This document shows positions 50,873-58,160 of a stretch of 64,000 nucleotides of DNA, one piece after another. A program made the position numbers and the translations under genes. The notes beneath the pieces are model-generated. The model worked only from the letters and a program-made list of their open reading frames with translations. It was not told the origin of the DNA and did not search any database. Numbering within the stretch: the first letter of the stretch is position 1; every line of letters begins with the position of its first letter. This DNA is from Buchnera aphidicola (Sitobion avenae) (GTDB lineage Bacteria > Pseudomonadota > Gammaproteobacteria > Enterobacterales > Enterobacteriaceae): assembly GCF_005082585.1 (NCBI RefSeq), contig NZ_CP034855.1:186001-250000 (forward strand), written 5' to 3'.

Positions 50873-52191
50873 GTGATTTCCTTTATTAATTTTATAAAAA
50901 GATTACCCCTCTCTTCAAAATTAGAAAATTGATCTAAACTGCTACATCCAGGAGACAGTAGTACTGTATCACCTGGTTTAACTTGTTGTGAAATTAATAT
51001 CATTGCTTCTTTTAAATTTTCAACATAAATAGATTTTTTTTTATATATTTTTGAAAGTTTAATACCATCTTTTCCAAAACAGTAAATTTTTATTTTTAGT
51101 TTTTTGAAATAAATTTTTAATTTATTAAAATTTCCAGATTTACTATCTCCACCTAATAACAATCTTATTTTTCCTGTTGTTTTTATGGAATTTAAAGCAA
51201 CTTCAGTACTATTTACGTTTGTAGATTTAGAATCATTGATCCAATTTATTCCCTTTTCATTTTTTATTATTTGAAATCGATGAGGCAGGTTTTGAAAATT
51301 TTTAATTACATTTATTGTCTTATTTCTAGGAAATTTCATTGCATCTGAAACAGCAATAGAGACTAATGCATTATTATAATTATGGTAACCATACAATGAG
51401 ATTTCTCTCGTATTCAATATCTTTTTATTTTTAAAAAATAAAAAATTATCTTGATTTTCATGATGTATATGATAATCACTTGTACTAGTTCCAAAACTAA
51501 TCCATTTTTTATTTTTAATATGCGCAAGATCATTTATTAAGTCATCATTTGAATTAGTTATGCAAATTTCCGCTTGATTATAAATAGATATCTTGGTTTT
51601 TTTATATTGTTGAAACCCTTGTGGATATCGATTGATATGATCCTCGCTAATATTGAGAAGAATTGCTATTTTAGATTTTAAAGTAAATGTGTTTTCTAGC
51701 TGAAAACTAGATAATTCTATTATGTATAAATCCGCTGTTTTATCAAGCATTTTTAATACAGGAAAGCCAATATTTCCACCTAAAAAAGATTTATAACCTG
51801 CATTTTGCGCGATTTTTGTTATCATTGTAGCCACAGTGCTTTTCCCATTAGTTCCTGTAATTGAAATAATAGGAACATTTGTTTCTCTAGAAAATAATTC
51901 AATATCGCTAATAATTTCAATTCCTAATGTACGTGCTTTAATTAAAGTAGGTTTCAATGAAGAAATTCCTGGACTTATAATAATTAAATCTGATTCTAAA
52001 ATCCATTTATGTTCTAAGTTTCCTAAACTATATTTAATATTTTTAGGAATCTTAAAAAGATTCTTAGGATTTTTAGACTCGTCAAGAATTTTAGGTCTTA
52101 TTCCTTGTTTTAAAAAAAAATTAATACATGACATTCCTGTCAATCCCATACCTAAAATTAATATTTTTTTACTAAAATAATTATATGACAT
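50869..52191 (-). CDS. murD: UDP-N-acetylmuramoyl-L-alanine-D-glutamate ligase
   Basis: MurD adds D-glutamate to UDP-MurNAc-L-Ala. The ATG at 52191 ([19 protein letters not shown]) shares one base with the mraY stop and follows AAAGG; the frame continues upstream into mraY but that part lacks homology. It has 440 residues, against 438 in E. coli. Motifs are [24 protein letters not shown], the P-loop [13 protein letters not shown] near residue 115, [52 protein letters not shown], and [19 protein letters not shown]. Confidence 0.97.
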
Positions 52192-53258
52192 TAATACACC
52201 TTTAAGGAAATAAGACTTATTAATAGTAATATTAATGATACGATCCAAAATCTCACCACAATTAAAGGTTCTGATATACCTTTAATTTCATAATGGTGAT
52301 GAATTGGAGCCATTTTAAATATTCTTTTTTTTCTTATTTTGAATGATATAATTTGTAAAATAACAGATATTGTTTCAAAAACAAAAATACCACCCATAAC
52401 AGTAAGTAGTAATTCTTGATGCAATAATATTGCTATAGTTCCTAAAGCACCACCTAGTGAAAGAGAACCCACATCTCCCATAAATACCTTGGCTGGATAG
52501 CTGTTAAACCACAAGAAACCTAATCCTGAACCAATAATTGCCATGCATAATACAGATAATTCTTCTGAATTTTTTATATAATGAACATGTAAGTGAGTAG
52601 CACTGTTTATATTTTCACTAAATAAAGATATTAATGTAAAACCACAAGTTAAAAAAATAACAGGCATAATGGCTAATCCATCTAATCCGTCTGTTAAATT
52701 AACTGAATTACTAGTGCCAACAATTACAAAATAAGAAAGAAATATGTATAAATAATGTATTTCAAAAGAATTTTTTACATAAAAAGGAATGATTAATTTA
52801 GTAGAAATGATTTCTTTGTTGCTAGTATTTATTATGTAAATGAATACTAAAGCAATGACAGACAACCAAAAATATTTCCATATTAATTTTAATCCCTGAG
52901 TGTTTTGGTATTTTATTTTTTTATAATCATCTATTAAACCTATTATGCCATATCCTATTAAAATACTTATAACATACCAAATATAAATACATGATAAATT
53001 ACAATATAATATTATAGAAAATAATATAGAAAAAATTATAAAAATTCCACCCATAGTTGGAGTATTATTTTTTGAAAAATGTGTTTTAGGTCCATTTTTT
53101 CGTATTATTTGATAATTTTGCAATTTTTTAAAAAAATATATGAAATATGGTCCAATATATAAATTAATAAAAAAAGAAGTTAATAAGCTGAATATTGCAC
53201 GATATGGAATATTAAAAATAAAATTTAAATTAAAATATTTATTTAAAAAAATTAACAT
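52191..53258 (-). CDS. mraY: Phospho-N-acetylmuramoyl-pentapeptide transferase (lipid I synthase)
   Basis: MraY moves phospho-MurNAc-pentapeptide to undecaprenyl phosphate at the membrane. It has 355 residues, against 360 in E. coli, with about ten membrane segments. Motifs are GPKTHFSKNNTPTMGGI near residue 55, GLIDDYKKIK with the catalytic Asp pair, VGTSNSVNLTDGLDGLAI near residue 183, FLWFNSYPAKVFMGDVGSLSLGGALG near residue 255, and the FKMAPIHHHYEIKG histidine loop. It overlaps the end of murF by seven bases and murD by one. Confidence 0.98.
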   Translation of the reverse strand: MLIFLNKYFNLNFIFNIPYRAIFSLLTSFFINLYIGPYFIYFFKKLQNYQIIRKNGPKTHFSKNNTPTMGGIFIIFSILFSIILYCNLSCIYIWYVISILIGYGIIGLIDDYKKIKYQNTQGLKLIWKYFWLSVIALVFIYIINTSNKEIISTKLIIPFYVKNSFEIHYLYIFLSYFVIVGTSNSVNLTDGLDGLAIMPVIFLTCGFTLISLFSENINSATHLHVHYIKNSEELSVLCMAIIGSGLGFLWFNSYPAKVFMGDVGSLSLGGALGTIAILLHQELLLTVMGGIFVFETISVILQIISFKIRKKRIFKMAPIHHHYEIKGISEPLIVVRFWIVSLILLLISLISLKVY

Positions 53259-54618
53259 TTTTTTTTGCTCTCTTTGATAAGTTTTTCTACTATTTCTTCC
53301 ATTTTTGCACTGCGAGATCCTTTGACTAGTATTGTTATTTGTTCTTGTTTTAAAAATAGTTTTTTTAAATATTCACTGAGATTCTTTTTATTAAAAAAAT
53401 GTTTTCCATTATTGCAAACTTTAGTAATTTCATTGCTTATGTTACCAACGCTAAACACTTTATTAATTTTTGATAAATTAGCAGTATTTCCTATCATTCT
53501 ATGATATAAAGCACTTTTTTCTCCTAATTCGGCCATATCTCCAGTTACTAAAATTTTATAACCTGGCATGTTTTCTAAAACTTTTATTGCTGAAATCATA
53601 GATGAAACATTAGAATTATAAGTATCATCAATTAAAATTTTATTGTTTGCTAATGTAATTAGTTCTAATCTTCTTGAAACAATAGGAGTATTTAATAGTC
53701 CTATTTTTATTATTTTTAAAGGTATTTTTACTGCAAAAGAAAGGGCTGTAGCTGCTAATGCATTAGATATGTTTTGATAGCCTAAAAATGGCAGTGAAAT
53801 ATCTATGTTTCCACATGGTGTATGTATTGTAAAAGATGTACCATATACATGAATTTTAATATCACTAGAAAAAAAATTACTATATTTTTTTTTTTGATAG
53901 AAAAATATAAAATATTATTTTTATATATATCTTTTTTCCATAGTGAAAGATGATGGCTGTCTAAATTAATAACCACTGTTCCATTTGGTTTTAAACCAGA
54001 AAATATTTCTGATTTGGCTTTAGATACTCCTAATAACGATTTAAATCCATTTAAGTGAGCACAGTGAATATTATTAATTAAGATAATTTCTGGTTGACTA
54101 ATATTGCTGGTATAAGAAATTTCACCTAATTTGTTTGCACCTAATTCAATCACAGCGTATTTATGTTTTTTTGTCAGTCGTAACAAAGTCATAGGTACAC
54201 CAATACTATTATTTAAATTGTCAATAGTAGATATTGTATTTCCATTCTGCCTAAGAATAGATGCCGTCATTTCTTTAACTGAAGTTTTTCCACAAGAACC
54301 AGTAATAGCTAATATTTTTGCATTAGTTTTTTTGCGAATCCAATTAGAAATCTGTCCTAAAGCAATAGATGTGTTGTCTACTATAATATAAGAAATATGG
54401 GATTTTATATTTTTCTGTGTAATTACAGCAGAACAGCCTTTTTTAATAGCATCTTTTACAAATATATGAGCATCAAATTTTATACCTATTAAAGCGATAA
54501 AAAGACAACCTGGAACAATTTTTTTAGTATCAATAACAATTTCATTTATAAATAAATTGTTTCCATATAGTTTTCCATTAGTAATTAAGGCGATTTTTTT
54601 CAATGATACAGAAATCAT
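53252..54618 (-). CDS. murF: UDP-MurNAc-tripeptide-D-Ala-D-Ala ligase, broken by a one-base frameshift in an A11 tract
   Basis: MurF adds D-Ala-D-Ala to UDP-MurNAc-tripeptide, completing the precursor. Residues 1 to about 244 read from 54618 and include the UDP site, P-loop ITGSCGKTSVKEMTA, LNNSIGVPMTLLRL, and NNIHCAHLNGF. This frame hits a stop at 53803. The rest, including LPFLGYQNISNALAATALS, ILIDDTYNSNVSSM, ENMPGYKILVTGDMAELG, and ILVKGSRSAKMEEIV, lies in another frame down to 53252. The switch is at 11 A residues (minus strand; 53885-53895): 12 would restore a single frame of 455 codons, against 452 residues in E. coli. No conserved segment is missing. It overlaps murE by ATGA. It is either rescued by slippage, a recent null, or a sequencing error. 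Confidence 0.9.
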
Positions 54619-56108
54619 ATTTTATTTTCCAATAAGTTTAATACTGTTTTTTTATCTGAATATTTTATATCTCTATTTTTAATTATTTGTTGTTCTTCAT
54701 GTCCTTTTCCTGCTATTAAAATTATATGATTATGTTTTGATTTAAGATATGCATAATATATTGCTTTTTTTCTATTTGGAATAATTAGTATTTTTTTCTT
54801 GTTTTTACAACCACTTAGAATATCTTGTATAATTTTTATTTCTTTTTCATTTCGCGGATTATCGTTTGTAAGAATAACTTTATCTGACATTTTTTCCGCA
54901 ATAGCCCCCATAATAGAACGTTTTTTTTGATCTCTTTCTCCTCCGCATCCAAATATACACCAAATGTATTTTCGATAATGTAAATAAATTGCATCAAGTG
55001 TTTTTTGTAATGCATCTGGTGTATGAGCATAATCAATAATAAAAGTTGGTTTTTTAATACGAAAAAATGTTTCCATTCTACCATGTACAGGTGTTATTTT
55101 TTTAGATGTGCGAATTAAATCAGACAAATTATAACCTAATTCTAAAAGACAAGCTAAAGATAATAAGAGATTGGTGACATTGAAATATCCAATTAGACAA
55201 GATGATATCTCACCCTTTCCCCAACTTGATTCGAATGTAATACGAACAGAATGATTATAATATTTAATATCTGTGGCATTGATCCATTTTGTAGAATATT
55301 TTCTCTGTTCAGAATTTTTAATCGTAACCGATATTGTATAGAAATCGAGTAATTTTTTTAACCATATTTTACCGTATTGATCATCAGCATTTAATATAAT
55401 TTTTTTAACTTTATGCGTGCTAAACAATAACCATTTTGCTGATTCATATTGTTTCATATTTATATGATAATCTAAGTGATCTTGTGTTAGATTTGAAAAT
55501 ATTGCAATATGAAAAGGAACGTCTTTTACACGATTTTGTATCAAACCATGTGAAGAAACTTCCATAGTCACTAATTTAGCTTGTTTTTCTAATGCCATAG
55601 ATAAGAATGAATGAATAAAAATAGCAGAAGAGGTCGTGTTTTTTGAAGGTTTTAAAAAGTTATAAACACCGTTTCCTAAAGTTCCCATGGTTGCAACTTT
55701 ATTGCCTAAAATTGTACTCCATTGATTAATCAATTGAATTATAGTCGTCTTTCCATTAGTACCAGTAACTCCAATTATTTTTAATTTTTTTCCTGGTTCT
55801 TTATAAAAACGGCTTGCTATCATCGATATTTTTTCGGATAGTTTAAAAAAGTATATTATAAGAATATTATTAATATATTTAAATATTCCATGAATTTCTT
55901 TTTTTTCAGTTTCATATAGAATTGTTGACACTTTTTTATAAATCGCTTCGAAAATAAAGTTGCGTCCATCTTTTTTTATTCCAGGCACAGCTATAAATAA
56001 ATCTCCTTTATTCAAATTTCTGCTATCCATATTTAAATTTAAAATATATTTGTTTGGAATATTTTTAATCCATGGTGATAGTAAATATTTTAAGGAAGTT
56101 TTGTTCAT
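54615..56108 (-). CDS. murE: UDP-MurNAc-L-Ala-D-Glu:meso-diaminopimelate ligase
   Basis: MurE adds meso-diaminopimelate to the peptidoglycan precursor. It has 497 residues, against 495 in E. coli. Motifs are the P-loop VTGTNGKTTIIQLINQW near residue 112, TTSSAIFIHSFL, EVSSHGLIQNRV, NLTQDHLDYHINM, GYFNVTNLLLSLA, VIDYAHTPDALQKTL, FGCGGERDQKKRSIMG, and the DNPRNE motif that selects meso-DAP over lysine. It starts 33 bp after ftsI and overlaps murF by ATGA. Confidence 0.97.
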   Translation of the reverse strand: MNKTSLKYLLSPWIKNIPNKYILNLNMDSRNLNKGDLFIAVPGIKKDGRNFIFEAIYKKVSTILYETEKKEIHGIFKYINNILIIYFFKLSEKISMIASRFYKEPGKKLKIIGVTGTNGKTTIIQLINQWSTILGNKVATMGTLGNGVYNFLKPSKNTTSSAIFIHSFLSMALEKQAKLVTMEVSSHGLIQNRVKDVPFHIAIFSNLTQDHLDYHINMKQYESAKWLLFSTHKVKKIILNADDQYGKIWLKKLLDFYTISVTIKNSEQRKYSTKWINATDIKYYNHSVRITFESSWGKGEISSCLIGYFNVTNLLLSLACLLELGYNLSDLIRTSKKITPVHGRMETFFRIKKPTFIIDYAHTPDALQKTLDAIYLHYRKYIWCIFGCGGERDQKKRSIMGAIAEKMSDKVILTNDNPRNEKEIKIIQDILSGCKNKKKILIIPNRKKAIYYAYLKSKHNHIILIAGKGHEEQQIIKNRDIKYSDKKTVLNLLENKI

Positions 56109-57900: not shown

Positions 57901-58160
57901 TTATTTTTTTTGAACTGTAGAGTGAATAGATAAAGAATTTTTTTCAATTATTAAATTTCTCCATTCTTCATTTTTCTCTTTTTTTTTAGAATGAGATTTT
58001 CTTCTTGAGAAATTAATAATCGGGTATTGTAAACTGTAATAATAACAAAACTAGCAGATAATATAATAGCTATTAATAGCATTAAGTGTATTTTCCCATG
58101 GGAAAGTAAATCTTTTTTAATTATTTTTGGTAAATCATAACGTTGAATTTTCATATTCAT
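57901..58160 (-). CDS. ftsL: Cell division protein FtsL, frameshifted at an A9 tract and C-terminally shortened
   Basis: FtsL is a bitopic divisome protein that, with FtsB and FtsQ, activates FtsW-FtsI. The frame from 58160 gives 69 residues: [49 protein letters not shown], with one membrane segment and the conserved NTRLL, then stops at 57951. With one more A in the A9 run (57979-57987), the frame continues as [26 protein letters not shown] to a stop at 57901, which matches the E. coli [21 protein letters not shown] segment. Even then the last 25 or so residues of E. coli FtsL are lacking. It overlaps rsmH by ATGA. FtsQ is missing from the cluster. Confidence 0.8.

Follow-up and report, generated by a model that had tools for sequence, protein, structure and literature searches.

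How might Buchnera aphidicola keep a working MurF when murF, alone among the genes of the peptidoglycan precursor pathway in the region analysed here, is cut into two reading frames? A preliminary description of this region (a stretch of 64,000 nucleotides, hereafter the window) had proposed that the two halves of the gene can be joined at a tract of 11 A residues, and that slippage at this tract rescues it. The window belongs to a genome (G000) composed of a chromosome of 636,177 bp and two small contigs, one of which (7.7 kb) matches leucine plasmids of Buchnera over its first 3 kb, the best matches (~87%) being those from Acyrthosiphon caraganae, A. kondoi and Macrosiphum albifrons. Our comparison of murF across the genus suggests that slippage at the A11 run very probably still yields the full-length protein. 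This mechanism is already known for murF, and the window represents a further strain of a published case, for which a clearer genus-wide picture can now be given.

Structure of the split murF gene

The first half of murF (53803..54618, minus strand) extends from an ATG start to a stop in frame 0 and encodes 271 aa, matching positions 1-221 of TIGR01143, the family model of MurF (UDP-MurNAc-tripeptide D-Ala-D-Ala ligase), and positions 1-151 of the Pfam domain Mur_ligase_M. Its last ~26 residues are an out-of-frame extension past the A tract. The second half (53252..53884, minus strand; 210 codons) is open in another frame and reaches the native C-terminus, with matches to positions 220-418 of TIGR01143, positions 154-199 of Mur_ligase_M, and Mur_ligase_C. 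The two frames part at the A11 tract (53885..53895, minus strand; T11 on the plus strand), which is uninterrupted in the murF mRNA, constitutes the proposed slippage site and was compared in 35 genomes. The offset of a single nucleotide sits exactly at this tract: the junction between the same two anchor residues spans 77 nt, i.e. one less than the 78 nt found in six intact relatives, which confirms that the halves lie in different frames and are joinable at A11. From the tract to the stop of frame 0 both frames are open (53803..53884, minus strand), and in this overlap conservation is higher in the frame of the second half than in frame 0.

Both halves combined cover the whole of TIGR01143 (418 positions), and the conserved segments of MurF are thus indeed present on both sides of the tract, although neither piece alone reaches the curated cut-off of the model. 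Since the break cuts the central domain (Mur_ligase_M, 200 positions), neither half makes up a complete enzyme. In the frame of the second half, the earliest ATG, GTG or TTG codon occurs at position 53599, ~95 codons into that half. The flanking genes, murE upstream (54615..56108, minus strand; 4-nt overlap with the start of murF) and mraY downstream (52191..53258, minus strand; 7-nt overlap with its end), are single ORFs, as are murC, murD, murG and ddlB within the window, so that the rest of the pathway is intact, as had been stated.

Distribution of the break within the genus

We searched 36 Buchnera genomes, including that of the window, with the MurF family model and found the gene in 35 of them, six copies being intact and 29 split; this genus-wide count is new. 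The one genome of the 36 with no match to the model (G025) is nevertheless rated 99% complete. Comparison with sister strains, suggested in the preliminary description, revealed that all 29 split copies are broken at the same tract, and that 28 of them, including the copy in the window, are one nucleotide short (the one-short class), the exception being G031 (A14), which falls into the other frame class. As the same site is affected in 29 of the 35 genomes with murF, the break is not a matter of chance. The 77-nt junction of the window is shared by 26 other genomes, and the two remaining split copies have junctions of 71 nt (G019, one-short class) and 76 nt (G031, other class). All 29 carry a run of at least A9, the lengths ranging from A9 to A14.

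No more than one break occurs in murF of 34 of the 35 genomes, and all split copies but one have a second half that stays open for 207-214 aa (28 of 29); a second break is present only in G019 (L077). In that genome murE is also broken, in the other frame class, and so is murC, which possibly reflects a real, ongoing loss.

Several of the genomes match named Buchnera strains: those of Acyrthosiphon pisum Tokyo (G030), A. kondoi (G002), U. ambrosiae (G017), S. graminum (G001) and R. maidis (G008). In a tree inferred from eight operon proteins (RsmH, FtsI, MraY, MurD, FtsW, MurG, FtsA and FtsZ), built by a quick method with SH-aLRT support only and with 6 of its 32 inner branches open, the state of murF requires at least seven changes. 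Lineages with an intact gene are scattered across one half of the tree, and a clade of 13 genomes, which includes those matching the S. graminum and R. maidis symbionts, is entirely one-short.

Selective constraint behind the A tract

Selection was assessed in nine close pairs of genomes in which both members are split. Of the 29 split genomes, 18 are covered in this way and 11 are unpaired; on the tree, five of the pairs are sisters and the remaining four sit in unresolved forks. The pooled dN/dS was 0.162 for the first half of murF and 0.221 for the second, and in the same nine pairs the neighbouring genes gave 0.200 (murG), 0.227 (murD), 0.214 (mraY), 0.175 (ftsI) and 0.044 (ftsZ). Not a single stop codon was seen in the 18 copies of the second half, versus ~113 expected under neutral decay since the pairs split, according to a simulation with a simple F81 model (25% GC) that used the observed synonymous distances of each pair. 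Since dN/dS resembles that of the neighbours and stops are missing, we infer that this half does get translated, in its own frame.

The stretch with two open frames points in the same direction. Changes in this segment, which follows the tract, fell 18, 5 and 37 times on the first, second and third codon positions, respectively, of the frame of the second half, and residue identity amounted to 179/206 in that frame versus 156/197 in frame 0, a difference not seen in every pair. Between two parts of the 13-genome one-short clade (36 pairs), the second half showed a median dS of 0.91 and a dN/dS of 0.19. In lineages with a broken murF, the second half is thus under purifying selection in its own frame, although part of this selection could date from in-frame periods if flipping between the two states is rapid. 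Taken together, this selection, the frame-specific conservation and the fact that 28 of the 29 split genomes share one frame class argue that a full-length product is made.

Direction and strand of the breaks

The direction of the breaks is by itself a weak argument. In three chromosomes, 34 one-short and 3 other breaks were counted at A runs of at least 8 (uncurated ORF-against-genome counts, with likely gene-end artefacts), 2 one-short and no other breaks at T runs (likewise uncurated), and 12 one-short and 14 other breaks at shorter runs (uncurated, again with likely gene-end artefacts). Six breaks of G001, situated at short runs or at none in four neighbouring genes, are all one-short; a deletion bias of mutation may therefore explain the direction, and we dropped this feature as a proof of selection. 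Selection is needed, on the other hand, to explain why the frame class persists while the remainder of murF stays conserved.

A runs of at least 10 in 12 operon genes were in frame in 107 cases, one-short in 53 and shifted the other way in one. Among runs of at least 9, 56 of 373 A runs were broken versus 1 of 71 T runs (Fisher p = 0.0007), or, with murF excluded, 26 of 291 versus 1 of 68 (p = 0.039). This test of strand proved unusable, since nearly all T runs are exactly 9 long, a length at which just 2 of 212 A runs are broken. A- and T-tracts of equal length are not comparable because sense T runs of at least 10 are rare (6 versus 161 A runs).

Breaks in other genes

The same 12 operon genes of the 35 genomes were compared by frameshift-aware (DP) alignment, which calls many events at gene ends; those within 30 residues of the start or 20 of the end were dropped before counting. 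Internal breaks of murF numbered 29 in the one-short class (28 genomes, plus the second break of G019) and one in the other. For murC we counted 10 one-short breaks, for murE 7 one-short and 1 other, for ddlB 6 one-short and 1 other, for ftsI, mraY and ftsW a single one-short break each, and for murD 1 other, these counts leaving aside the dropped gene-end events. The latter include murC breaks near residues 15-18 in five genomes, which are either real or alternative starts, and a murD break near residue 27 of G008 that turned out to be a real event. At the site of the murC break, A runs of at least 10 are confined to G019 and an Aphidini-like half of the tree with 14 genomes; of these 15 genomes, 10 are one-short and 5 in frame, and behind the break murC is open for 374-385 codons in all 10 one-short ones.

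Within the window, ftsL (57901-58154, minus strand, between rsmH and ftsI in the same operon) is split at an A9 run in the same frame class as murF, a break that is absent from the preliminary description. In a coarser treatment of this gene, 18 of the 35 genomes were one-short and 17 were counted as in frame, G023 being ambiguous. Elsewhere on the chromosome of G000, one-short breaks at A10-A11 tracts occur near positions 121437, 181657, 274880 and 493795 (L085, L088, L090 and L101), in genes with homologues that match PriA, IspE, RNase HI and RecB. The genome matching the A. pisum Tokyo symbiont (G030, L044) has an intact murF and a ddlB that is one-short at A11 near residue 121, a site at which ddlB of the window has A12 and is in frame. 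Near position 1728 of the window there is a possible break of the other class by a T7 run, relative to the G030 homologue, which may be a difference in start site.

Cell-wall genes in the genome matching the R. maidis symbiont

The genome matching the R. maidis symbiont (G008, L060) holds full-length copies of murC, murE and murF, each of them interrupted by a single break, at an A10 tract, which is a new observation. The same three genes are broken at A tracts, with near-full coverage on both sides, in G008 and its relatives G001 (L057), G010 (L059) and G031 (L066). Two further genes of G008 are affected: murD has one frame break near residue 27, at a T8-A7 stretch (the frame is kept there in G010 and G001), and ftsL has one at an A10 run. 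The murD break is either real, and needs rescue too, or an assembly error; in general, any rescue in G008 would have to cover murD and ftsL as well, or else these breaks are errors.

A 2022 study from whose data frameshifted genes were removed concluded that Aphidini symbionts are without murC, murE and/or murF; as it reports, the R. maidis symbiont builds a cell wall, and compensating mechanisms were proposed. The words "slippage" and "Tamas" are absent from its main text. A 2023 review repeats this conclusion; of 38 Aphidinae Buchnera genomes, it credits 29% with murF and 97% with murC and murE. Our literature search, which was thin on subscription journals, found no work linking slippage to the Aphidini cell-wall puzzle.

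Discussion

Judging from DNA, we consider it likely that murF of the window is a working gene that is one nucleotide short at its A11 run, and that slippage of RNA polymerase yields an in-frame fraction of mRNA encoding full-length MurF. The polymerase would slip on the A11 tract, the resulting mRNA pool would carry variable numbers of A's, and the in-frame part of it would direct synthesis of the complete protein, the remainder giving the truncated product of 271 aa. Such a rescue would make the in-frame and one-short states nearly equivalent, so that, as a matter of reasoning only, lineages would flip between them, most being one-short at present. The preliminary description had favoured this reading, which gains support from the selection acting behind the tract, from the frame-specific conservation there and from the frame class common to all split genomes but one. 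The assignment of the slip to transcription rather than to translation is drawn from published work on Buchnera.

The abstract of a 2008 PNAS paper by Tamas et al. reportedly names murF, together with immunostaining of its product (full-length MurF in a split strain). Slippage at poly(A) frameshifts of Buchnera and Blochmannia is attributed to this study in three later papers (PMC3164680, PMC5009743, PMC3017870), in agreement with the earlier statement that such rescue had been reported for Buchnera genes. As those accounts present them, the Buchnera cases of Tamas et al. resemble murF of the window in the bacterium, in the type of gene (cell-wall genes of aphid symbionts) and in the break at an A tract. 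They differ in that the frame was found to be restored in a fraction of transcripts, while murF of the window is known from DNA alone, and in the aphid lineage (the nearest leucine plasmids of our genome come from Acyrthosiphon and Macrosiphum). Corrected transcripts make up 12-50% in frameshifted endosymbiont genes, including cell-wall genes of aphid symbionts, according to a review in NAR; Williams and Wernegreen state that such genes give full-length functional products, and Degnan et al. (2011; PMC3164680) cite slippage as shown for a locus of the R. padi symbiont. Of the 157 transcription insertions that Traverse and Ochman report for Buchnera, 151 lie in homopolymers, and rates climb with run length; their 2017 work on strain LSR1 reports no transcription error that restores a frame in Buchnera, which counts against rescue by slippage.

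The same paper by Degnan et al. describes a homopolymeric frameshift of murF in the Buchnera strains Ak, Ua, Sg, 5A and Tuc7, i.e. the same gene and the same kind of break as in the window, with Ak, Ua and Sg being represented in the present set. It counts four independent inactivations of murF among its own genomes, whereas among the 35 compared here the one-short state is the rule and the second half is fully constrained. A parallel exists in Blochmannia, where, according to another paper's summary of Wernegreen et al. (2010), homopolymer frameshifts are likewise shared between species in a gene without decay.

The slip might instead occur on the ribosome, which would move back by one nucleotide on A-rich codons (A AAA AAA or A AAA AAG) and continue in the frame of the second half. 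A AAA AAG is the slippery motif of E. coli dnaX, a gene whose -1 frameshifting resembles the murF case in its A-rich slippery sequence and in its direction. A -1 slip would restore the class found in 28 of the 29 split genomes, and a slippery heptamer is present in the right phase, as A AAA AAA in the genome of the window and as A AAA AAG within GAA AAA AAA AAG in several relatives. The stimulators, however, were not found: unlike dnaX, murF lacks a Shine-Dalgarno-like motif within 20 nt upstream of the tract (35 of 35 genomes, as scanned) and a consistent stable structure downstream, fold z-scores ranging from -1.11 to 1.75 in 32 genomes (-0.52, -0.86 and 0.07 for the window). Values of -0.27, -2.58 and -1.79 were obtained for G005, G029 and G032, respectively, but these were taken at a neighbouring A10 run. 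Moreover, tracts of at least A9 are longer than a ribosomal site needs (although long tracts also mutate most), G031 belongs to a class that a -1 slip does not restore, and published work places the slip in the RNA. Ribosomal slippage as the main route to MurF is therefore unlikely in our estimation.

Slippage by RNA polymerase also has to be set against readings in which no complete MurF would be made, or in which the break is not real. That murF died recently and independently in many lineages, and is on its way to being lost, would agree with the scattered distribution of intact and broken states (at least seven changes on the tree), with the reported difference in murF state between A. pisum strains and with the second break in G019. 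Against this, one would need to have sampled 29 of 35 lineages shortly after the gene had died, the one-short state is common to a whole clade of 13 genomes, and the constraint on the second half, stop-free in 18 copies, equals that of intact neighbours; we regard such a decay as improbable. Homopolymers are error-prone in sequencing and assembly, and a mistake in the assembly of G000 could in principle mimic the break, yet the same frame class appears in 27 other assemblies, among them those matching the A. kondoi, U. ambrosiae and R. maidis symbionts, which are reported to have been sequenced with two types of reads, and an error is accordingly very improbable. The conservation of both halves would also be expected if they were produced separately and acted as two subunits. 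This idea has the least to recommend it, as the break cuts through the central Mur ligase domain and the stretch that precedes the first start codon of the second half (53599) is conserved too.

A broader proposal, which is speculative and in our opinion rather doubtful, is that the level of MurF, and in some of the Aphidini that of MurC and MurE as well, might be set by the fraction of slippage at long A tracts, perhaps with ribosomal aid. The one-short state would then be a setting kept across the Buchnera of Aphidinae, and Aphidini symbionts said to have lost murC, murE or murF would still use them. Frameshifted genes of this kind get dropped by gene-content surveys, and the metabolic novelty proposed for the Aphidini becomes a simple test on RNA. 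If the proposal is true, the cell-wall supply of the symbiont would pass through a recoding step.
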